Below are positions 12,818 through 32,187 of a stretch of 32,881 nucleotides of DNA, one piece after another (position 1 is the stretch's first letter; each line of letters starts with the position of its first letter). Source of the DNA: Bacteroidota bacterium (GTDB lineage: Bacteria > Bacteroidota > Bacteroidia > JABEUT01); assembly GCA_013288345.1 (NCBI GenBank), contig JABDCA010000030.1, forward strand, positions 1,721 to 34,601, given 5' to 3'. Below the pieces are notes generated by a model. That model was not told where the DNA came from. It ran no database searches and worked only from the letters and a program-made list of their open reading frames with translations. Position numbers and translations under genes: made by a program.

Positions 12818-15800
12818 TTATCTTTTGATATATACCCAACCACGTTTTTCAGTATTGTTATATTTAATTATGTAATAATATGTTCCATCAGCCAGGTCGG
12901 TTCCATTCATATCCTGTCCGGCCCATTTCACAGTATTATTATCATAGTCAGATCCTCTCCATACTTCGCTGCCCCAACGGTTTATGATCAATACCGTATT
13001 TGATGTATAACAATTAAGCATTGGTATGTTCCACCAGTCATTTACACCATCTCCATTAGGTGATATTCCGGTATAAAAATCGCTTGAGCCAATGGTTACA
13101 GTTACCTCATTTGAATTAAAACAACCTGTGGTGGTATCGGTTTCATTCACGGTATATAAGGTGGTTTGGCTTGGGTTTGCTGTTGGCTGAGATATTGAAC
13201 TTGAATTTAATCCCATTGCCGGAGTCCATAGATAGGTATCTCCTGCAACCGGTGGTCCGCCTAGTTGTACACTTCCTGCATCACAGAGTGATTGATTGCT
13301 ACCGGCATTAGCCATTGGTAAAGGATTTACGTGAATTATAACAGAATCGGAACCGGAACAACTGCCATTGGTTGTTATTAATGTATATGTTGTTGTTGAA
13401 CCAGGATCAGCGGCAGGTTGAGATGCAGTAGCGGAATTTAATCCCGTAGATGGTGACCAGTTGTAAGTATTCCCAGCTATAGCCGGTGTTCCTATTGTTA
13501 CAGTTGTTCCTTTACAAATAGTTTGATCAGGCCCTGCATTGGCAGTTATCGCAGTATTTACTGTTACCACTACTGTGCCTGTTACTATAGAGCTGCAGAT
13601 ACCACCCACTACTGTAAGTGTATATGTGGTGGTGTTTGCAGGGCTTGCATTAGGTTGCGATGAAGTTGCAGAACTTAATCCGTTAACAGGTAACCAGGCA
13701 TAAGTTACACCATTAACAGCGGGGGCGCCAATACTCACACTGTCTCCTTTGCAAATACTTTTATCGGGTCCGGTATTCGCTATAGGCTGCTGAGATACAT
13801 TAACTATTACTGTATCTGTATTAGTACAGCTAAAAGCGGCATTTGTTACCGTTAAAGTGTAAGTTGTAGTTATGAGCGGGCTTGCATCAGGTTGAGCCAA
13901 CACAGTTGAATTCAGGCCTGCTGCAGGTGACCAGATATAAGTGTTTCCTGATATAGCAGGTGTTCCAATACTTGTACTATCGCTTTTGCAAATATTTTTA
14001 TCGGCTCCGGCGTTAGCAGTAGGTAATGGGTTTACTTTTACACTAACAGTGTCAGTATTGCTGCATGGGCCGTTAGTAGCTGTAAGTGTATATGTAGTAG
14101 TAATTGCCGGGCTTGCATTAGGATGTGATGAAGTTGCAGAACTTAATCCGTTAACCGGTAACCAGGCATAAGTTACGCCGTTTACACCAGGTGCGCCAAT
14201 ACTTGTGCTGTCACCTTTACAAATGACTTTGTAAGTACCTGCATTTGCTATTGGTTGTGGCAATACATTAACCATAACAGTATCTGTATTAGTACAGCTA
14301 AATGCAGTATTTGTTACCGTTAACGTATAAGTTGTAGGTATCAGCGGACTTGCATCAGGTTGAGCCAATACAGTTGAATTCAGGCCTGCTGCCGGCGACC
14401 AGCTATAGGTATTTCCTAACAGCGCAGGTGTTCCTATTTTTGTGGTGTCGCCCATGCAAATGGTTTTATCAAGTCCTGCATCGGCAACCGGTAATGGATT
14501 TACTTTTACACTAACTGTGTCGGTATTACTGCAAGTACCATTAGTAGCTGTAAGTGTATAAGTAGTAGTTGTAACAGGGCTTGCATTAGGCTGTGATGAA
14601 GTTGCTGAATTTAACCCTGCAACAGGTAACCAGCTATAGCTTACTCCTAAAACAGCCGGAGCGCCTATACTTGTGGTATCTCCTTTGCAAATGACTTTGT
14701 AAGTACCTGTATTTGCTACAGGTTGCGGCAATACATTAACCAGAACAGTATCTGTATTAGTACAGCTAAATGCAGTATTTGTTACTGTTAAGGTATAAGT
14801 TGTAGGTATCAGCGGACTTGCATTAGGTTGAGCCAATACAGTAGAATTCAGGCCTGCAGCCGGTGACCAGCTATAAGTGTTTCCTAACAGTGCCGGTGTT
14901 CCTATTTTTGTGGTGTCGCCCAAGCAAATGGTTTTATCGGGCCCTGCGTTAGCAGTTGGCAATGGATTTACTTTTACAGATACAGTATCAGTACTGCTGC
15001 AAAAGCTTGTAGAAGTTGTAAGTGTATATGTAGTTGTAGCTGCAGGGCTTGCCTTAGGCTGCGATGAAGTTGCTGAATTTAACCCTGCAACAGGTAACCA
15101 GCTATAGGTTACTCCTAAAACGGGCGGAGCACCTATACTTGTTGTGTCTCCTTTACAAATGACTGCATAAGTACCAGCATTAGCTGTAGGCTTAGGATAT
15201 ACACTTACCGTTACTGTATCGGTATTTTTGCATCCTTTAATAGTATCTGTTACGGTTAAAGTATAGGTAGTAGTTAGAGATGGGCTTGCTTTGGGTTGGG
15301 CCGCTGTATCAGAACTTAAGCCTGTAGCCGGTAGCCAGCTATAAGTTGTTCTTGCAGTTTTAGGAGTTCCTATTATAGTGCTGTCGCCTTTGCAAATACC
15401 TTTAGTTGGCCCTGCATCGGCAGACGGCAAGGGATTAACAAAAACTGTAGACGGTCCTGTATAATCTGAACAACCATCTAAATAGGTAATGCCAACTGAA
15501 TAAGCTACGCCAGCAACAACGGGAATGCTTTTGTTTGTACTTCCTGTAGACCAAAGAAAACTCGCTCCGTTTGAAGCAGTAAGTATTAAAGGTTCACCTG
15601 CACAAAAATTAGATGTATCGCCATTATTTGCTGTAATGTAAGCAGATGGTACAGGTTTTACAACAATTAATAATGTATCGGAATTTGCACAACCTGTAAC
15701 CGTATCAGTTACAGTTAATGTATATGTAGTAGTATCATCAGGGCTTGCATTTGGATTTGAAACGGTATAAGAGCTAAGCCCTTTGTTAGGAGTCCAGTTA

Positions 15801-16240
15801 TATTTATCAGCAGGCACCGGAGGGCCGCCTATTGAAATAGTATCACCGTAACATATAGTATCAGATTTGCCTGTTACAACAACAGGTAAAGGATTTACGG
15901 TGAGCGATACAAATATTGAGGTATCGTTGAGCTGTAATGGTACGGTTACTATAACATTATAATGCAATGAAGAATCAGGTACTCTTGTAGGATTAATGGT
16001 TAGCGTTGCGGTATTGGAACCCGAAATACTTCCTGTGTCAATTAAATTCACTGATCCTCTTCTCCACTGATAGGTTGCGCCTGCAGCTGTTACGGTAAAA
16101 CTCGCAGGGTTACCAGCACAAACTGTTTGATTGGATGGTTGTGTAATAATGGTGGGAATATGATTACCGCCAAAACTGATTGTTGAAAAAGAGAATAAAG
16201 CAATAACTGAAATTATAATGGGTAGGAATTTACTTTTCAT
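12818..16240 (-). CDS. Large Ig-repeat surface protein with gliding-motility C-terminal domain
   Basis: The 1140-residue product has a signal peptide (to about residue 24), one Ig-like domain (about 28-119), and then a chain of 78-residue modules. Most modules start with ANAG...ICKGD, have Y(S/T)W(S/L)P and end in NTDTV.V.V. One divergent module (199-272) interrupts the chain. The last 86 residues (1055-1140: ISPNGDGVND, INRWG, DGTYYYIIKY) are the gliding-motility-associated C-terminal domain, the type B T9SS signal. The protein is therefore exported by T9SS and probably displayed as an extended adhesin-like fibre. Each module has two Cys that could pair. Residues 352-819 form a higher-order dimeric repeat. 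It heads the operon with PorP/SprF and the PorE-like gene. Confidence 0.93.
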   Translation of the reverse strand: MKSKFLPIIISVIALFSFSTISFGGNHIPTIITQPSNQTVCAGNPASFTVTAAGATYQWRRGSVNLIDTGSISGSNTATLTINPTRVPDSSLHYNVIVTVPLQLNDTSIFVSLTVNPLPVVVTGKSDTICYGDTISIGGPPVPADKYNWTPNKGLSSYTVSNPNASPDDTTTYTLTVTDTVTGCANSDTLLIVVKPVPSAYITANNGDTSNFCAGEPLILTASNGASFLWSTGSTNKSIPVVAGVAYSVGITYLDGCSDYTGPSTVFVNPLPSADAGPTKGICKGDSTIIGTPKTARTTYSWLPATGLSSDTAAQPKASPSLTTTYTLTVTDTIKGCKNTDTVTVSVYPKPTANAGTYAVICKGDTTSIGAPPVLGVTYSWLPVAGLNSATSSQPKASPAATTTYTLTTSTSFCSSTDTVSVKVNPLPTANAGPDKTICLGDTTKIGTPALLGNTYSWSPAAGLNSTVLAQPNASPLIPTTYTLTVTNTAFSCTNTDTVLVNVLPQPVANTGTYKVICKGDTTSIGAPAVLGVSYSWLPVAGLNSATSSQPNASPVTTTTYTLTATNGTCSNTDTVSVKVNPLPVADAGLDKTICMGDTTKIGTPALLGNTYSWSPAAGLNSTVLAQPDASPLIPTTYTLTVTNTAFSCTNTDTVMVNVLPQPIANAGTYKVICKGDSTSIGAPGVNGVTYAWLPVNGLSSATSSHPNASPAITTTYTLTATNGPCSNTDTVSVKVNPLPTANAGADKNICKSDSTSIGTPAISGNTYIWSPAAGLNSTVLAQPDASPLITTTYTLTVTNAAFSCTNTDTVIVNVSQQPIANTGPDKSICKGDSVSIGAPAVNGVTYAWLPVNGLSSATSSQPNASPANTTTYTLTVVGGICSSIVTGTVVVTVNTAITANAGPDQTICKGTTVTIGTPAIAGNTYNWSPSTGLNSATASQPAADPGSTTTYTLITTNGSCSGSDSVIIHVNPLPMANAGSNQSLCDAGSVQLGGPPVAGDTYLWTPAMGLNSSSISQPTANPSQTTLYTVNETDTTTGCFNSNEVTVTIGSSDFYTGISPNGDGVNDWWNIPMLNCYTSNTVLIINRWGSEVWRGSDYDNNTVKWAGQDMNGTDLADGTYYYIIKYNNTEKRGWVYIKR
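13784..15187. repeat. Three tandem 468-base units (dimeric module repeat)
   Basis: Within the Ig-repeat gene, modules alternate between a 77-residue type (SWLPVAGLNSATSSQP) and a 79-residue type (SWSPAAGLNSTVLAQP). The 156-residue pair recurs three times: 14720-15187, 14252-14719 and 13784-14251. Marker strings in the DNA recur at 13813, 14281 and 14749, exactly 468 bases apart. The 79-residue modules of the two upstream-most units differ at only about 6 positions, so amplification is recent compared with the outer modules. Confidence 0.9.
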
Positions 16241-18284: not shown

Positions 18285-21200
18285 TTACCTGATAAGTTGA
18301 AGGTATCCGTTCAGGTTGTAATTCTTGCTGCTATAATCAGTAGCCTTAATAATATAGTAATAGGTACCATCTGATTCTTCTACACCCGACATGCTTCTTC
18401 CATCCCAATCAACATTTGGCGAATCGGCCATAAATACCCGTTGGCCCCAACGGTTAAATATCTCGATGTTATATGTTTTTAAGCTGCTTGCTGTTACATG
18501 GAACACATCATTTGTTCCATCGTTATTTGGCGTAAATACATTAGGTACATATATTAATTCGATAACGTGAATAGTATCGATTGCTGAATCGCGGCAACCA
18601 CTTTTGTTGGTTACCCAAAGGGTTGTAATGTAGTTTCCGGCAACGTTGTACTGGTAGTATGGGAAAGGAGCGGTAGATGTACCGCCATCGCCAAATGTCC
18701 AGTACCAGGCTGTTGCCAATGTGCTGCTATCTACAAAGGCTACATATTCTCCTGCTAATACGGGGTTTGGTGCAGCAGTAAATATTGCAACAGGCGTAGG
18801 ATATATTGCTACTTGTGTAGTTGATGTAGCTGTGTTGTTACATCCATCTGTTACAGTACACGAATATGTTGTAGGGCTTATTGGGTTTACTACATAAGGC
18901 CCGGAACCGGTTCCTAAAGCAGGTGTCCATACATAAGTATAACCGTGTAGCGGATCACCGCCACTTACAGTTGCATCGATAATTACCGCCTGGCCACTGC
19001 AAACAGAATCGAGTGTCGCCATGTTTAAAACTAGTGGAGGGAATAAATATATTGGTTGTGATTTGGTGTCAGTACATGCTCCGTTTGCACTGTAGGCAGT
19101 AACGGTATATGTGGTAGGGCTTGTAACAGGACTAACATTTACTGCAGCCGACGTGGAACCACCGGGACTCCATGAATAGGTAACGCCACCACTTGCAGTT
19201 AATGTAACCGATGTTCCAGGGCATATCGTATCATTCCCTCCGGTAATACTAATAGATACGGTTGGGCTTGCATTGACAGTAATGATGATAGTTGCAGTAT
19301 CAACACAACCTGCCGCATTTGCTCCTATTACACTATATGTTGTTGTTCCAGCCGGGCTGGCTGTAACCGGCGATCCACTTGTAGGGCTAAGGCCTGCAGT
19401 AGGTGTCCATGTATAGCTGGTTGCTCCAATAGCAGTAATAACAGTGCTCTGTCCTGTACATATTGCAGTATCCGAAGCGCTCACATTTACTAATGGCTTA
19501 GTACTAACTATAACAGTAACAGTATTACTGTCCTTGCATTTTCCGGTTGTGGTACCAATTACCTGGTAAGTAGAATCGGTTGCAGGGCCAACTTTAATAG
19601 CTGAACTGGTTGAACCATTACTCCACATATAATTTGTAGCACCAGTTGCTGTAAGTGTTGTAGAATCGCCTGAGCAAATAGTTGGTGGTGCAGCAAATGC
19701 AGTTACCACAATATTTTTAGTGGTGATAGTAACACTTGCAGTATCAGATATACAATGGCTTGCATCAGATATGGCTACCGTATAAGTTCCTGCTCCTAAG
19801 CCCATAGCAGTATCTGTAGTTTGTGCAGGAGTAGTGCTCCAGTTGTAGGTATAAGGCGGATTTCCTGCACCGGTAACAGTTACATAAGCCTGTGTAGTAT
19901 CACCCGGGCATACTGTTCCGGGCGACACCGAAGAAGCAGTTATGGTGGCAGGCTTACTTACGAGGATAGAGACTTTTGCACTATCGGAACATCCGCTGCC
20001 GGAAGTGCCTTTTACAGAAAAGCTAGTATCATTTGTTGCGGTAATTACAAAGCTGCTGTTGGTAGAACCATTGTTCCATATATAGCTAGCAGCACCAGAT
20101 GCTTTAATAGTGTCTAGTTGTCCCGCACAGATAGCCGGAGAAGATGCAGATGCAGTTACCTTTATTACACCTACTGTAACCGTAACTGTTTTCTGGTCAG
20201 TACATGTGCCATTAGTTCCTGTTACGGTATAAGTTGTTGTAGAACCGGGGTGTGCCATTATGGTATCTGTAGTTTGCCCGCCGCTCCATAAATAAGTTGT
20301 TGCACCACTGGCGGTAATTTTGGCTGTATCTCCCGGACACAGGCCCGGCGATGCAGGATTTACAACTACAGTTGGTGTAGTGGTAACAGTAATTACAATT
20401 GTTTTGGTAGCATTACCGTTGCTGCAACCTGCTGCATTGGTTCCGGTAACGGTATAGGTAGTTGTAGTAATTGGGCTTACACTTATAATTGATGTAGTTG
20501 CACCTGAGTTCCATAAATATGTTGTTGCACCACTGGCAGTTAAAATAACTGTAGTACCCGAACATATTGCTGTAGATGGTAATGCGCCAATGCTAACTGT
20601 TGGCGATGCGTTTACAGTTACCACCACTGTTGCAGGTGTGGTATTGCTGCATCCTGCTGCGGTTGTAGCTTTTACAGTATAGGTAGTTGTAACAGTAGGG
20701 CTGGCAGTTGTAGTATCGTAAGTAGTTGTGGTTAATGTAGCTGCCGGTGTCCATGTGTAGGATGCTAAACCTGTCGGGCTGGCATTTAACTTAACCGATG
20801 AACCCGAACAGATAGTAGCAGAAGGTGTTGCAGAAGCAGTAACAGTTGGTGTAGGGTTAACAGTTATAGTTATAGTTTGGGCTGCACCAGCACACGCTCC
20901 ATTACTGGCAACAACAGTATAAGTAGTAGTACTGCCAGGTGTAGCAAAAACAGTTGCACCGGTAGTTGGGAATGTTCCGCCTGTCCATGCGTAAGTAGTG
21001 CCACCAGATCCTCCATTAGCATTTAATGTAACAGTATTACCCGAACAAATGGTTGTACCCGGTGTGGCTGAAACAGTTATGGTAGGTGTAGTATTTACGG
21101 TTACTATTATTGTTTTAGGGCCTGTACTACATGTGCCATTGGTAGATGTTACAGTATACGTTGTTGTTGTTCCCGGGCTAACCGTTATACTTGAAGTAGT

Positions 21201-23345
21201 AGCGCCGGTACTCCATACATAAGTAGTACCTCCTGTCCCTCCATTGGCTGTTACGGTAGTTGAACCACCCGAACAAATGGTAGGTGGCGCTGCTGTAACA
21301 TTTATGGTTGGTGTTGGGTTTACCGTTATCACTATTGTTTGCGGAGTGCCGCCACAAGCACCGTTGGTAGGTGTTACCGTATAGGTTGTTGTCGTACCCG
21401 GACTAACAGTAATGCTTGTTGTAGTTGCTCCAGTACTCCATATATAAGTAGTTGCACCTGTTCCTCCTGAAGTATTTAATGTAACAGAACTACCCGAACA
21501 TATTGTTGATGAAGGTGTAGCTGAAACAGTAATAGTAGGTGTAGTATTTACTGTTACCACTATTGTTTTGGTGCCCGAACAAACAAAAGGAGAAGTAGAT
21601 GCAGTTACTGTATAGGTTGTGGTAACAAGCGGATTGACACTAATGCTTGAAGCGGTTACACCTGTGCTCCAGGTGTAAGTACCTCCGGCTCCCGCACCTG
21701 TTGCAGAAAGTGTAGTTCCGCTTCCACCGGTGCAAATAGAAGCAGATGGGGAAGCAGTAATAGTTGGAGTCGGATTAGATGTTACCGTAATAGCAGTATC
21801 GATTGTAAAGTTACAACCGGCAGTACCTGTTAAGTTAATGGTACAAGAATAAGTCCCCGAGCAAGTAACTTTCACGGTTTGGTTGGTCGAACTGCCCGAT
21901 ATACAAGGGCCCGTCCATTTGTAAGTAGCACCACCCGACGGCGCGGTAATAGTAGTGGATCCACAAACCGGACTAACAACCGGCAATTGCACTTTACCGC
22001 AACTCAAATCGATATAGCAATATGCAAAATGCCCACCTTGCCAGCAACCACAGGCTATGGCCTGAAAAGTTACAGTTGTTCCAACATAGGCAGACATATC
22101 AAATGCTATAGATGACCACGGTTTATAGTAACATGCAGTTTGGTATTCGCCGCCACCGTTACCAGCTGTATTTTGTATCCAGTTTATTGACTTGCCAGCT
22201 AAAAATCCTGTTGGAAAAGTTCCTGCAACTGCTTCCTGGTAATATTGCAGGCACGAAATGGGGTTACCGCTTTGATCATATACAGCAAAAAATACAAATG
22301 GTTGTTCGCCCGAAGGATGGCCACCGTCATTTAATACCGCTGCAAAATTTATGGTAAGAAGATCATTGCCCGATGTAATAGGAATAGCTTGTTCCATTTC
22401 TTCGCCCTGTGCTGCAAACTGGTGATGGCCTCCTGTAGCTGCGCCTCCAACAAGTGCACTTGTACCTGAACTTGTATCTAATCCTGTGCCGGCGTCAAGA
22501 GCATAACTGCCACGCTCTCCGCATCCTGCAAATCCGCCGCCAATACCCGGATCGAGGTTTACAAAATCTCCACCTAAACGGCAACTTGCTGTAAAGCCCG
22601 GACAAACCATAGGGAAGTTTCCGCAAGAATCTGTGCCCTTGGTACATATTGTTAACCATGAACAGGAATTTAAGTTTGCATCTTTGCCCAATGTAATAGG
22701 TGTACCCGAAGGGGGTGGAGTAGTGTTTTGAGTATTTAAAGTAGCTGTGTTATACTGCCAGTTTCCCCACGAAGTAAAAACAGAACCTGCTCCGGCCCAA
22801 TTGTTTACACCAATTGCACCACTCCAGTTTGTATAGGGTGCCGGGTCCGAAAAGTCGATATTATTACAGCCTGCGCCAAATGCCTGATGGCTTTGATGCT
22901 TCCCTGTATTATCAAGCCAAATGTCTTTAATTGTTTTTATACCTCTTGCCTGATCGTCTTCGCTTGGTTCAACACTTTCTCCGTTTCGGCTAACGCTTCG
23001 CATAGCATCAGCATGATGTGGATTCCTTAAAGCAATACGGTATTTTGCGTATAAAAACACCTGCTCAGCCTGCATCATATAATTGTGCAATTCATTCGAT
23101 GAGCAGTTCATGGCTTTAGCTTTCTCAAAATTGCCTTTCAGGTCGAAACCGGTTAAACTATCTCCATGATAAAATATATAATCTTCAGCTTTAACCCTGC
23201 TGTAAAATCCATTGGGTTTAGTAATAGTATGTTGCCCTAATGATAAGAGCGGGAAAAGAAGAGTGAAGGCCAAAAGAACTACTGCCCCTTTAATAAAAGG
23301 AGGTATGATAAAGAAATTGCCGGAGCGAGTAAAGTTTCTTTTCAT
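18285..23345 (-). CDS. Giant Ig/PKD-repeat surface protein with gliding-motility C-terminal domain
   Basis: The 1686-residue product has a signal-anchor-like N-terminus (hydrophobic residues about 18-37). A non-repetitive Cys-rich domain follows (about 40-450; includes GEQPFVFFAVYDQSG and ACGCWQGGHFAYCYIDLSCG), which may be a beta-sandwich recognition head. Then come 14 Ig-like modules of 70-82 residues, each with ICSG-type Cys near the start, TTTYTVT in the middle and a second Cys. One PKD domain (WYWTFGDGGTST) and a C-terminal gliding-motility-associated domain (VFTPNNDGTNDVF, FNRWGQRVF, DGTYYYIIKA) finish it. This is the architecture of T9SS-exported SprB-like adhesins. No PorP gene is adjacent; the one at 11827 may serve both. 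It has an excellent promoter at 23394-23424. Confidence 0.92.
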   Translation of the reverse strand: MKRNFTRSGNFFIIPPFIKGAVVLLAFTLLFPLLSLGQHTITKPNGFYSRVKAEDYIFYHGDSLTGFDLKGNFEKAKAMNCSSNELHNYMMQAEQVFLYAKYRIALRNPHHADAMRSVSRNGESVEPSEDDQARGIKTIKDIWLDNTGKHQSHQAFGAGCNNIDFSDPAPYTNWSGAIGVNNWAGAGSVFTSWGNWQYNTATLNTQNTTPPPSGTPITLGKDANLNSCSWLTICTKGTDSCGNFPMVCPGFTASCRLGGDFVNLDPGIGGGFAGCGERGSYALDAGTGLDTSSGTSALVGGAATGGHHQFAAQGEEMEQAIPITSGNDLLTINFAAVLNDGGHPSGEQPFVFFAVYDQSGNPISCLQYYQEAVAGTFPTGFLAGKSINWIQNTAGNGGGEYQTACYYKPWSSIAFDMSAYVGTTVTFQAIACGCWQGGHFAYCYIDLSCGKVQLPVVSPVCGSTTITAPSGGATYKWTGPCISGSSTNQTVKVTCSGTYSCTINLTGTAGCNFTIDTAITVTSNPTPTITASPSASICTGGSGTTLSATGAGAGGTYTWSTGVTASSISVNPLVTTTYTVTASTSPFVCSGTKTIVVTVNTTPTITVSATPSSTICSGSSVTLNTSGGTGATTYIWSTGATTTSITVSPGTTTTYTVTPTNGACGGTPQTIVITVNPTPTINVTAAPPTICSGGSTTVTANGGTGGTTYVWSTGATTSSITVSPGTTTTYTVTSTNGTCSTGPKTIIVTVNTTPTITVSATPGTTICSGNTVTLNANGGSGGTTYAWTGGTFPTTGATVFATPGSTTTYTVVASNGACAGAAQTITITVNPTPTVTASATPSATICSGSSVKLNASPTGLASYTWTPAATLTTTTYDTTTASPTVTTTYTVKATTAAGCSNTTPATVVVTVNASPTVSIGALPSTAICSGTTVILTASGATTYLWNSGATTSIISVSPITTTTYTVTGTNAAGCSNGNATKTIVITVTTTPTVVVNPASPGLCPGDTAKITASGATTYLWSGGQTTDTIMAHPGSTTTYTVTGTNGTCTDQKTVTVTVGVIKVTASASSPAICAGQLDTIKASGAASYIWNNGSTNSSFVITATNDTSFSVKGTSGSGCSDSAKVSILVSKPATITASSVSPGTVCPGDTTQAYVTVTGAGNPPYTYNWSTTPAQTTDTAMGLGAGTYTVAISDASHCISDTASVTITTKNIVVTAFAAPPTICSGDSTTLTATGATNYMWSNGSTSSAIKVGPATDSTYQVIGTTTGKCKDSNTVTVIVSTKPLVNVSASDTAICTGQSTVITAIGATSYTWTPTAGLSPTSGSPVTASPAGTTTYSVIGANAAGCVDTATIIITVNASPTVSISITGGNDTICPGTSVTLTASGGVTYSWSPGGSTSAAVNVSPVTSPTTYTVTAYSANGACTDTKSQPIYLFPPLVLNMATLDSVCSGQAVIIDATVSGGDPLHGYTYVWTPALGTGSGPYVVNPISPTTYSCTVTDGCNNTATSTTQVAIYPTPVAIFTAAPNPVLAGEYVAFVDSSTLATAWYWTFGDGGTSTAPFPYYQYNVAGNYITTLWVTNKSGCRDSAIDTIHVIELIYVPNVFTPNNDGTNDVFHVTASSLKTYNIEIFNRWGQRVFMADSPNVDWDGRSMSGVEESDGTYYYIIKATDYSSKNYNLNGYLQLIR

Positions 23346-29497: not shown

Positions 29498-30178
29498 TTA
29501 TAGATAATTATCAATCATCTCTCTTACGCAGGCATCTCCGCCATTGCGTGTAAGAATAATAGATGCATTTTGTTTTATTTTATCTATAGCATCGGCAGGG
29601 CAGGCAGAAAATGCTGCTTTGCTTATTACTTTTAAATCATTTATATCGTCACCTACATAGGCTACGTTCTTGTAGGTTATTTTCAATTCTTTCACCCACT
29701 TGTCAAGTATCTTTTCTTTTTCTTCGAAACCTACGTAGGTTTTTTGCACGCCCAAAAGTTTTGCACGACTTTGTATAAGCGCACTGTTTTTGCCATTACT
29801 TAAAAATGCAACCTGCATACCATTCTTCACTAATCGTTTTATGGCAAGCCCGTCTTTAGTATTGAATTTTTTTAGCTCGTCACCATTCTCGGTGTAGTAC
29901 ATGCCGCCATCGGTAAGCACTCCATCAATATCAATAACCAATAGCTTAATATTTTTTGCGGCTGTGTTTTTTATGGCCAGGTCAACATTCACCAATGTAT
30001 CTATTGAAAGCCCAAATGCTGTTGAGAAAGAAATAAGTTGAGGCAGCGTAACATTATTGCTGTTCTTTTCAGCCAGCTTAATATGTTTCTCTTTAACTGA
30101 CGATAACTGTGCGCGGCCCGCAACACTTTGTTTGCGCTGCTGCTTCAGAAATTTAATATTTGAAGAAAGGTAGTTCAT
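29498..30178 (-). CDS. KdsC-like HAD phosphatase with N-terminal XRE-type helix-turn-helix
   Basis: The 226-residue protein (start ATG 30178, not the TTG before it) fuses two domains. Residues about 4-66 follow the XRE/Cro fold pattern: SSNIKFLKQQRK, LPQLISFSTAFGLSIDTLVN. The segment between, where the DNA-recognition helix should be, is degenerate. Residues 77-226 are a C0-type HAD phosphatase like KdsC: nucleophile pair Asp83 and Asp85 in DIDGVLTDGG, Ser127 in LSNGK (usually Thr), Lys154, GDDIND (176-181) and a C-terminal GGDACVRE like the GGxGAVRE of KdsC. KdsC removes phosphate from Kdo-8-P. Here it follows a DAHP-synthase-like gene by 3 bases, so it probably dephosphorylates that product. 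Confidence 0.88.
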   Translation of the reverse strand: MNYLSSNIKFLKQQRKQSVAGRAQLSSVKEKHIKLAEKNSNNVTLPQLISFSTAFGLSIDTLVNVDLAIKNTAAKNIKLLVIDIDGVLTDGGMYYTENGDELKKFNTKDGLAIKRLVKNGMQVAFLSNGKNSALIQSRAKLLGVQKTYVGFEEKEKILDKWVKELKITYKNVAYVGDDINDLKVISKAAFSACPADAIDKIKQNASIILTRNGGDACVREMIDNYL

Positions 30179-30181
30179 CAA

Positions 30182-31183
30182 TTAAACGATCTTTCTGCTC
30201 ACCGCTTGCGCAATAGGTTGCAGGGTTTTATAAAGATTGCTGAACTGTTCGAAATTTAATTGCTGTGACGCATCCGATAAAGCTACTGCCGGATTAGGAT
30301 GTGTTTCAATAAGCAATCCATCAACACCCATAGCCACACATGCCCTTGCCAAATCAGGTACGCCATAAGCATAACCAATAGCATGGCTCGGGTCGAGCAC
30401 TACAGGCAAGTTGGTATATTCTTTAAGATAAGCTACGCCGCATAAATCTAAAGTAAAACGTGTTTTAGTTTCGAAGGTGCGTATGCCACGTTCGCATAAT
30501 ATTACGTTAGGGTTACCGGCCGATAAAATAAATTCTGCTGCCTGTACAAATTCCTGCAAGGTGCTGCCAAAGCCACGCTTAAGCAAAACTGGTTTTGATG
30601 ATTTACCGCAGGTCCTTAAAATACCCTGGTCGTACATAGCTTTTGCGCCTATCTGTAAAATGTCGGCATATTCTATTACGTCATTCACATGGGTTGAGTC
30701 GCGTATTTCAGTAATAATTTTTAAGCCATACTTGGTACGCATTTTGGCCAAAAGCTTTAACCCGTCAATGCCCATGCCTTGAAAGGTATAAGGCGAAGTG
30801 CGTGGCTTATAAGCGCCTGCGCGTAATACACCAACTCCCAGTTTCACGCATAATTGCGCCGCTTGTTCTATCTGCTCTTCCGATTCTACTGAACATGGCC
30901 CGGCAATCATAACAGTGTTACCAGTCTTTCCGCCGATACTTATTTTATCTGATAATTCTACAGTGCGTACTTCGCTTTTGTATTTGCGGCTGGCTAACTG
31001 AATATCATCATCGAATGCTACGCTGCTATCGGCAAACTGTGCAAATTTTTCTTCCAGCTTTTTTAATTTATTGGGAGTAATAAGGGTAAAGCTGCCGTTA
31101 TCTTTAATTACAAAGGCTTGCAATTCTTTGCCCAGTTCATTTGCTTTGGTGTTGTCAACACCGGGTTTCAACTTAATTATCAT
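30182..31183 (-). CDS. Type I-beta DAHP-synthase-like 3-deoxy-ulosonate-phosphate synthase
   Basis: The 333-residue protein matches the type I-beta DAHP synthase/KdsA family: a ferredoxin-like N-terminal domain (MIIKLKPG, residues 1-60) and a TIM barrel. Metal ligands Cys97 (AGPCSVE), His267 (DPSHAIG), Glu293 (IETHP) and Asp304 (LSDASQQ) are present, as are KPRTS (126-130) and LLKRG (200-204). It would condense phosphoenolpyruvate with an aldose phosphate. Acceptor-side segments differ from those I know in shikimate enzymes: QIGARNMQNF is QIGAKAMYDQ (177-186), TRNTLD is TRFTLD, and the Arg-rich stretch after DPSH is IGYAYGV. The acceptor may therefore not be erythrose-4-phosphate. It overlaps the epimerase-CBS stop by one base (TAATG). 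Confidence 0.9.
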   Translation of the reverse strand: MIIKLKPGVDNTKANELGKELQAFVIKDNGSFTLITPNKLKKLEEKFAQFADSSVAFDDDIQLASRKYKSEVRTVELSDKISIGGKTGNTVMIAGPCSVESEEQIEQAAQLCVKLGVGVLRAGAYKPRTSPYTFQGMGIDGLKLLAKMRTKYGLKIITEIRDSTHVNDVIEYADILQIGAKAMYDQGILRTCGKSSKPVLLKRGFGSTLQEFVQAAEFILSAGNPNVILCERGIRTFETKTRFTLDLCGVAYLKEYTNLPVVLDPSHAIGYAYGVPDLARACVAMGVDGLLIETHPNPAVALSDASQQLNFEQFSNLYKTLQPIAQAVSRKIV

Positions 31184-32187
31184 TATTCGCCTTTAATTAG
31201 ATTATTGAATGTAACAATGCCCTGCAGCACATTATTATCGTCTACCACGGGCAGGAATAAAATAGGGAACTTAATGCTCTTGATAAAAGAAAGCATTTCG
31301 GAAACGGTAGAAGAATCCTTTATTTTAAATGGATTGGTATTGATAAGGTCATTTACGCTGATGGCTTCCAGTTTTTTAATATTCTTTATGAGCCCTTTGC
31401 GCACATCGGCATTACTTACTATTCCCAGTAGTTTTCCTGTTGCGTCGGTTACATTGGTAAAACCAAGTTTATAATCTTCGATGCTTTGCAGGGTTTCTAA
31501 AAAAGTAGCATTGGTGCTGATAGCAGGAGATTCTTCGCGGGTGATCATAAAATCACTTATGCGAGTATGCGATGTAATATTATCGCTGCGCAATTGGTGT
31601 AATACCCTGCCAATAGCATTCTCGGTATTTACCAGGAACGAACCTGATACAACAGAATCAACACCCATGTTGCGCAGAACAAATGCCACTTCGTCGGTAA
31701 CGCCACCATCTACATGTATTTTTTTGCCGGGGAATTCGTTTTTGAAATCACGTATTTTTCTAAAGTTCTCTTTATTAAATACACCACCGCTTTTACCGGG
31801 TGTAGTAGTCATAAAGAGGATAAAATCAAACTTATCTTTATAAGGTTCAAATACTTCTATAGCTGTTTGGGAAATAATGGCCATACCCAGTTTACAGGTA
31901 ATATCGGCAGGTAGCTTAAGCGGAGCTTTAAGATTCTCAAATTGAAAAGTAACCAGTTCGGTTGCAGTTTCTTTTATTCCGGCATAAAACTTTTCAGGCT
32001 CCGCTGAAATAATGTGCAGGTCGATTGGGGTTTTGCTGATGGTCCGGATGTGCTTAATATCATCGAACACCTTCAGGTCGTCGTTACAATCTACATGTAT
32101 GTAATCAACATTTACCGAATCGAGTTCCTTAACCAGCTCATCGAGCGGCTTGGTTTTATTGGAATATATGGAAGCTGATATTTTCAA
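31183..32187 (-). CDS. Ribulose-phosphate-3-epimerase-like TIM barrel fused to a CBS pair
   Basis: The 334-residue form starts at TTG 32187 (MKISASIY, matching the M-K-I-x-x-S-I start of epimerases). Another TTG at 32199 overlaps the promoter box. Residues 1-200 resemble ribulose-phosphate 3-epimerase with the metal-site residues His31 and Asp33 (IHVD), His58 (IDLHII) and Asp160 (HVDGG). The usual MDGxFVPN after HVD is replaced by CNDDLKVFDD, and NPGFGGQ by TPGKSGG. Residues about 210-334 are two CBS motifs, the first with GIVSNADVRK, like the CBS pair of KdsD (arabinose-5-phosphate isomerase). CBS pairs bind nucleotides and would allow feedback control. It is the first gene of the operon, before the DAHP-synthase-like gene. 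Confidence 0.87.
   Translation of the reverse strand: MKISASIYSNKTKPLDELVKELDSVNVDYIHVDCNDDLKVFDDIKHIRTISKTPIDLHIISAEPEKFYAGIKETATELVTFQFENLKAPLKLPADITCKLGMAIISQTAIEVFEPYKDKFDFILFMTTTPGKSGGVFNKENFRKIRDFKNEFPGKKIHVDGGVTDEVAFVLRNMGVDSVVSGSFLVNTENAIGRVLHQLRSDNITSHTRISDFMITREESPAISTNATFLETLQSIEDYKLGFTNVTDATGKLLGIVSNADVRKGLIKNIKKLEAISVNDLINTNPFKIKDSSTVSEMLSFIKSIKFPILFLPVVDDNNVLQGIVTFNNLIKGE

Follow-up and report, generated by a model that had tools for sequence, protein, structure and literature searches.

A CBS-tailed epimerase-like protein, a DAHP-synthase relative and a KdsC-type phosphatase form an operon that probably replaces KdsD-KdsA-KdsC in some Bacteroidota

The synthesis of 3-deoxy-D-manno-oct-2-ulosonic acid (Kdo) is taught as near-universal among bacteria with lipopolysaccharide (LPS), and two of its enzymes, KdsA and KdsD, are discussed as drug targets. 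How, then, do bacteria that encode KdsB and WaaA, and neither KdsA nor KdsD, furnish a sugar for lipid A? The question is raised by three touching minus-strand genes at positions 29498-32187 of a 32,881-nucleotide stretch of a Bacteroidota contig (JABDCA010000030.1, positions 1,721 to 34,601), the whole of which is referred to here as the window. They encode a ribulose-phosphate-epimerase-like (β/α)8 barrel with a pair of CBS domains, termed EPI (31183..32187, minus strand), a relative of the type Iβ 3-deoxy-D-arabino-heptulosonate 7-phosphate (DAHP) synthases (30182..31183, minus strand), and an HAD phosphatase of the KdsC/YrbI type that is extended at its N terminus (29498..30178, minus strand). 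An earlier note on this DNA had named these genes, and domain searches confirmed their location, strand, and all three domain assignments. The stop codon of the EPI gene and the start codon of the synthase gene have one base in common (TAATG); the EPI start was placed at the TTG at 32187, the point at which homologues begin with MKISAS in the alignment. We assign a probability of roughly 0.75 to the reading that KdsD-KdsA-KdsC has been replaced here non-orthologously, the operon supplying a sugar to KdsB and WaaA encoded elsewhere. Its product is probably the acidic sugar linking lipid A with the remainder of the LPS, either Kdo or a shorter relative, made by a route not yet described; no description of the operon was found in the open-access literature searched (on the gene combination, alternative Kdo pathways, the specificity of DAHP and Kdo-8-phosphate synthases, Crocinitomicaceae LPS, a C7 Kdo analogue, and 2-epimerases of ribose- or arabinose-5-phosphate).

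The reading rests first on the Kdo genes of the organisms concerned. Eighty genomes were searched, 77 with EPI and three of the same genus without it (G303, G304, and G305). The kdsB gene exceeds its cut-off in 74 of the 77 (77/80 overall) and waaA was found in 73 (76/80 overall), whereas kdsA exceeds its cut-off in a single EPI genome, G363 (3/80 overall, the others being G303 and G304), and kdsD in 1/80, again G363; in G305, KdsA is present in two halves at contig ends. In G363, a Crocinitomicaceae bin, KdsA and KpsF share one 12-kb contig (L242, G363:C293) with genes that look secretion-like by eye. On account of these genes and of a KdsA that is nearest to that of E. coli (425 bits), this contig is probably foreign, i.e., a contamination of the bin, although its G+C content is similar to that of the EPI contig (0.42 versus 0.41). 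The earlier note had proposed a pathway built in parallel to KdsD-KdsA-KdsC. The three matching roles stand, more strongly than that note could have known, with both kdsA and kdsD below cut-off in 76/77 genomes and kdsB and waaA retained in most; what has to be revised is the place of the operon, since the retention of kdsB and waaA without kdsA and kdsD suggests that it takes the place of the Kdo pathway and does not operate alongside it. As in KdsD-KdsA-KdsC, a CBS-tailed protein would supply an aldose phosphate to a synthase condensing it with phosphoenolpyruvate (PEP), followed by a YrbI-type phosphatase, and KdsB and WaaA lie downstream in most operon genomes too. Unlike in that pathway, the supplier is an epimerase barrel and not an SIS protein, the synthase groups with DAHP synthases, and the genes form a single operon.

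A control sample of 296 genomes of the phylum, 73 of them from the class of the window, points in the same direction. Within the class, kdsB is present in 73/73 genomes and kdsA in 71/73, and the two kdsA-negative genomes (G000 and G041) are the only two with a full-length EPI. The protein is rare, being found at full length in 2/296 genomes of the phylum sample, with the next match at 70.7 bits and of partial coverage; in the order to which the window belongs, it occurs in 4/11 genomes. KdsD was detected at E 1e-30 or better in 67 of the 71 kdsA-positive class genomes (in two of these, G230 and G238, as an SIS-domain match only, below the cut-off) and is absent from four, G091, G146, G190, and G292, which belong to three families. 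Exactly these four of the 71 encode a full-length protein combining a transaldolase/FSA domain with CBS domains (FSA-CBS), a coincidence expected by random pick once in 971,635, uncorrected for kinship. In G091, G146, and G292, FSA-CBS stands in a row with KdsA and a HAD-like protein, in which an FDWDGVF motif is visible by eye and no Pfam match was obtained at 1e-3, and in G091 (L247) KdsB follows two genes beyond. In G190, no KdsA, HAD-like protein, or KdsB was found near FSA-CBS within the 9 kb fetched. FSA-CBS also adjoins KdsA in G303, and in G304 and G305 the two are no more than about 7 kb apart. The FSA-CBS loci of these Bacteroidota without KdsD are L247:3424-7386, L248:3552-6252, L249:3227-5842, L250:4340-5395, L178:823-2570, L179:782-2487, and L145:17-1944. 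FSA makes arabinose-5-phosphate from glycolaldehyde and glyceraldehyde-3-phosphate, as stated in an excerpt of PMC9947464, and FSA-CBS very probably does the same. In both FSA-CBS and EPI, a CBS-tailed enzyme takes the place of KdsD; they differ in that the FSA-CBS system retains KdsA and would give arabinose-5-phosphate by aldolase chemistry. In the class sample, the SIS, FSA, and epimerase folds are three mutually exclusive fillings, mostly CBS-tailed, of the slot that feeds the synthase. If the operon is read correctly, the supplier appears to have been exchanged at least twice with the CBS tail kept, which points to the tail as the essential regulator. One genome of the phylum sample rated 100% complete (G066; L232, L245) encodes KdsB and gave no match to KdsA, KdsD, FSA-CBS, or EPI; perhaps it has found another solution.

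The linkage of the three genes is not due to chance. When GTDB contigs were scanned, 355 stretches gave a match; relatives are encoded in 209, and the best 80 of these 209 were kept as loci; they show 47 to 91% identity and stem from Bacteroidota, many from Crocinitomicaceae, Fluviicola, Brumimicrobium, or Lishizhenia. The synthase gene directly follows EPI in 75/80 loci, with a 4-base overlap at the junction in 57 of the 75, and a KdsC-type phosphatase gene comes next in 71/80, so that the joint conservation on which the earlier note had staked its proposal is found. Five loci have no full synthase beside EPI: L082 has a 70-residue fragment only, 111 bases before the contig end, the contig stops just after EPI in L100 and L109, no synthase lies within 1.6 kb after EPI in L110, and in L111 (genome G320) synthase and phosphatase stand together on the EPI contig at a distance of 11 to 12 kb. 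Among the loci with both EPI and synthase, L036, L044, and L055 have no adjoining KdsC-type gene. Minor irregularities are a 321-base gap between operon genes in L103 and an EPI read as two open reading frames in L049. No relative was found in the viral contigs searched. A further expectation of the earlier note, neighbours such as a cytidylyltransferase, failed: no homologue of KdsB or WaaA was detected at E 1e-15 in the 80 loci, whose flanks extend to at most 10 kb and less at contig ends. Outside this set, in G320 (C46; L246:2505-8647), waaA is located 3.2 kb from the phosphatase of the displaced synthase-phosphatase pair.

EPI of the window scores 91.2 bits against PF00834, above the gathering score, and 43 bits against the CBS family. 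It is not a member of the ribulose-phosphate 3-epimerase (RPE) family TIGR01163 (80.4 bits, cut-off 212.6) or of the KdsD/KpsF family TIGR00393 (44.5 bits, cut-off 203.7), which matches solely its CBS pair (31192..31563, minus strand; KpsF/GutQ). Comparison of 81 EPI proteins with 13 RPE sequences showed residues H35, D37, H62, and D164, which we take to be the metal and acid-base positions of RPE, to be invariant in 81/81 EPI proteins, and the barrel and the phosphate-binding glycines are likewise shared with RPE. In contrast, M39, M72, H94, and Q150 of human RPE are replaced by N, I, Q, and G, respectively, in 81/81 and E173 by H in 80/81, so that of the methionine-lined pocket M141 is kept and M39 and M72 are lost throughout; the PNITFG loop of RPE is missing from the EPI rows of the alignment, and the CBS pair is an addition. 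With the catalytic positions kept and the pocket changed, EPI looks, from its residue pattern, like a working but different, non-RPE epimerase. A role as the sole ribulose-5-phosphate epimerase is ruled out for most of the genomes, as 71/77 own a separate ordinary rpe gene. The AlphaFold model of EPI has a mean predicted local distance difference test (pLDDT) value of 86.0, with residues 183 to 203 below 50; a Foldseek search returned RPE as the best match of the barrel and the CBS pair of KdsD (4o9k) as the best match of the CBS part. By fold, the tail resembles the CBS pairs of arabinose-5-phosphate isomerases (4o9k, 3k2v, and 3fna), whereas by sequence alone other CBS proteins, e.g., MJ0100, score above them. 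The CBS pairs of KdsD bind CMP-Kdo (CMP, cytidine monophosphate), and the pair of EPI is a probable feedback sensor.

The synthase of the window exceeds the cut-offs of PRK08673 (377 bits) and of the DAHP synthase family TIGR01361 (330 bits, cut-off 267.75) and stays below that of the KdsA family TIGR01362 (126 bits, cut-off 314). Its model (pLDDT 91.8) is nearest to the DAHP synthases 4GRS, 1VR6, and 1RZM, then to KdsA. In a tree of 57 rows, including 38 of the 75 operon synthases, the latter cluster with a support of 90/100 apart from both KdsA and the fusions of DAHP synthase with chorismate mutase, subject to a long-branch warning that makes any sister group of the operon synthases tentative. 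Loop length matters in KdsA, and the KPRT and β7-α7 loops of the operon synthases have the length found in DAHP synthases and are shorter than in KdsA, which is marked by a KANRS-type motif and a long β7-α7 loop. A diverged KdsA is ruled out by score, loops, and tree. With the type Iβ enzymes of T. maritima (1RZM) and P. furiosus (1ZCO), the operon synthases share the fold, metal ligands, loop lengths, and N-terminal domain, and both the KPRT motif (residues 126 to 129; 30797..30808, minus strand) and the metal-ligand motifs are intact in 75/75. They depart from these enzymes in the GARNxQN motif, which reads GAK[AS]MYD in 75/75 (GAKAMYD in the window; residues 179 to 185; 30629..30649, minus strand), and in the β7-α7 motif GRRxLV, which is changed and reads G[YF]AYG in 55/75. 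Specifically, all 75 have K181, Y184, and D185 where 5/5 Iβ references have R, Q, and N. The arginine of the GAR motif is described as a completely conserved PEP-binding site in an excerpt of PMC6362186; in 75/75 operon synthases this residue is a lysine. We propose that the enzyme is a 3-deoxy-ald-2-ulosonate-phosphate synthase.

The third protein belongs to the KdsC family TIGR01670 (144.8 bits, cut-off 106.95) and falls short of the KDN-9-phosphatase family NF058599 (139.1 bits, cut-off 180). Its N-terminal extension is present in 65/71 relatives and absent in 6/71. HTH_3 was recognised above cut-off in one of six extensions tested (L035), the other five, including that of the window, remaining unrecognised; the extension is probably a degenerate helix-turn-helix domain.

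What might such a set of enzymes make? The steps outlined here, with every reaction, substrate, and product, are inferred from what was computed, i.e., linkage, the keeping of kdsB and waaA where kdsA and kdsD are absent, domains, and residue patterns. The stereochemistry of a Kdo-type ring requires an aldose phosphate with S configuration at C2, such as arabinose-5-phosphate or threose-4-phosphate, and the pentose-phosphate pathway supplies aldose phosphates with R configuration at C2, ribose-5-phosphate and erythrose-4-phosphate. KdsD reaches a (2S) aldose phosphate by ketose-aldose isomerisation, and FSA does so by aldol addition. EPI would apply the metal and two-aspartate chemistry of the RPE family to an aldose phosphate, abstracting the C2 proton and adding it back from the opposite side, a reaction of the RPE type shifted by one carbon, and would thereby turn a (2R) aldose phosphate supplied by the pentose-phosphate pathway into its (2S) form; candidates are ribose-5-phosphate to arabinose-5-phosphate and erythrose-4-phosphate to threose-4-phosphate. 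The DAHP-synthase-like enzyme would condense this product with PEP, the KdsC-type enzyme would take off the phosphate, and the free sugar acid would be activated with CMP by KdsB and transferred to lipid A by WaaA, while the CBS pair of EPI may sense the end product, a role that has been proposed for KdsD as well.

If the operon indeed replaces KdsD-KdsA-KdsC, the chances that its product is a C7 analogue of Kdo are about even; Kdo itself is somewhat less likely, and any other product would come as a surprise. EPI is almost always accompanied by its own synthase and FSA-CBS by KdsA, which suggests that the intermediate is not arabinose-5-phosphate, and this pairing, together with the DAHP-synthase-like loop lengths, tilts the balance toward an intermediate of four carbons and a product of seven. 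That KdsB and WaaA are retained fits either Kdo or the C7 acid, because ring and carboxylate would be the same; 3-deoxy-D-lyxo-hept-2-ulosonic acid matches Kdo in ring stereochemistry and lacks C8. The earlier note's product different from Kdo may or may not be right. We tentatively propose, at somewhat less than even odds for the complete scheme, that the LPS of this entire group of Bacteroidota is anchored via this C7 acid, formed from threose-4-phosphate and PEP after 2-epimerisation of erythrose-4-phosphate by EPI.

The alternative that survives best fills the same slot and differs in the product: EPI would make arabinose-5-phosphate, from ribose-5-phosphate or ribulose-5-phosphate, and the synthase would be a Kdo-8-phosphate synthase derived from a DAHP synthase, with Kdo as the outcome. 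It accords with KdsB being over cut-off in 74/77 genomes with its main motifs kept in the 19 operon genomes aligned (19 of the 74 with KdsB), with the KdsD substitute FSA-CBS, which very probably gives arabinose-5-phosphate and retains KdsA, with the likeness by fold of the EPI tail to that of arabinose-5-phosphate isomerase, and with the acceptance of five-carbon substrates by archaeal Iβ DAHP synthases. For an arabinose-5-phosphate intermediate, however, it would be odd that in the 77 genomes, G363 aside, EPI was not seen alongside KdsA and the operon was not seen alongside KdsD, and the KPRT and β7-α7 loops lack the greater length seen in KdsA. We consider this alternative unlikely, yet worth keeping in view.

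Considerably less probable is an unrelated surface or exopolysaccharide sugar, in bacteria that have no Kdo and in which KdsB serves another sugar. In its favour, waaA went undetected in 4/77 operon genomes, and the arginine of the KdsB motif IPxxR is lost in 8/19 operon genomes (L198, L201, L203, L205, and L211 to L214; the second copy of G319 was left out) and kept in 19/19 comparison genomes. Against it, the same survey found waaA in the other 73/77, and EPI and kdsA are exactly complementary in the class sample; no KdsB or WaaA homologue was found beside the operon in the 80 loci (glycosyltransferases in general were not screened), but in G320 waaA is 3.2 kb from the displaced phosphatase gene.

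A last alternative would make the operon part of the aromatic pathway, and the complement of DAHP synthases bears on it. In 27 operon genomes searched with PF00793, a second gene of the family is present in 22; the long additional copies carry a chorismate mutase domain in 10/10 cases tested with Pfam, one copy (L159) is shorter than these fusions, and two Brumimicrobium loci (L149 and L162) reveal a third, ordinary Iβ DAHP synthase in addition to the fusion and the synthase of the operon. No second gene was found in 5/27, namely, the metagenome-assembled genome (MAG) of the window, which is 86.69% complete, and G301, G302, G308, and G310. The other DAHP synthase that the earlier note had looked for is thus at hand in most operon genomes and was not found in that of the window, for which the note's objection keeps some force. 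A fusion is present in G296, of the genus of the window. In G303, G304, and G305 (96 to 99% complete), PF00793 finds KdsA only (type II DAHP synthases were not searched), so a lack of type I DAHP synthases may characterise part of this genus, and the first step of the shikimate pathway may have been lost in these three genomes. An ordinary DAHP synthase whose erythrose-4-phosphate supply is aided by a regulated epimerase, with the phosphatase incidental, is the least probable reading: scores above DAHP synthase cut-offs, intact erythrose-4-phosphate motifs, and the want of a second gene in the window's MAG and 4/26 other operon genomes would suit it, but it has against it the second gene in 22/27 with fusions in 10/10 long copies, the PEP arginine missing in 75/75, an EPI that is no ordinary RPE (80 bits versus 212.6), and the absence of kdsA and kdsD and the KdsC-type phosphatase, both left unexplained.

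Several points weigh against a replacement of KdsD-KdsA-KdsC. The locus set comprises the best 80 of 209 relatives, with 129 left out, and the genome counts omit 5 of the 80 loci. In the EPI genomes, kdsB does not exceed its cut-off in G296, G302, and G354, and waaA was not found by PF04413 in G041 (rated 100% complete), G306, G301, and G302. Across the phylum sample, kdsB and kdsA are coupled less strictly than in the class: G066, G114, and G123 have kdsB without kdsA, EPI, or FSA-CBS (G066 and G123 are also without KdsD), and at the thresholds applied kdsA was found and kdsB was not in G024, G059, G067, and G260. No ordinary rpe was found in the incomplete MAG of the window, and the missing second DAHP synthase in the five genomes named above belongs here as well; with the metal and erythrose-4-phosphate motifs of DAHP synthases retained, the operon enzyme could still carry out ordinary DAHP synthesis. 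Finally, we know of no epimerase of this family acting on C2 of an aldose phosphate, and of no activity, metabolite, or LPS structure for this system.

Other neighbours of the operon are less constant. A family related to AlaDH/PNT_N (domain found in one tested member) is encoded in 53/80 loci, and an ATG22-type transporter family (assigned from one tested member) occurs near the operon in 43/80. Elsewhere in the window, positions 12818-16240 and 18285-23345 encode very long, repeat-rich secreted proteins with a C-terminal stretch that, by eye, resembles those of gliding and type IX secretion system proteins.

If the operon does replace KdsD-KdsA-KdsC, a missing part of LPS synthesis in these Bacteroidota would be filled in, a reaction would be added to the epimerase fold, and the inner core may contain a new sugar. 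Should the product be the C7 acid, EPI would act as an aldose-phosphate 2-epimerase, which would be a new activity for the ribulose-phosphate epimerase fold.

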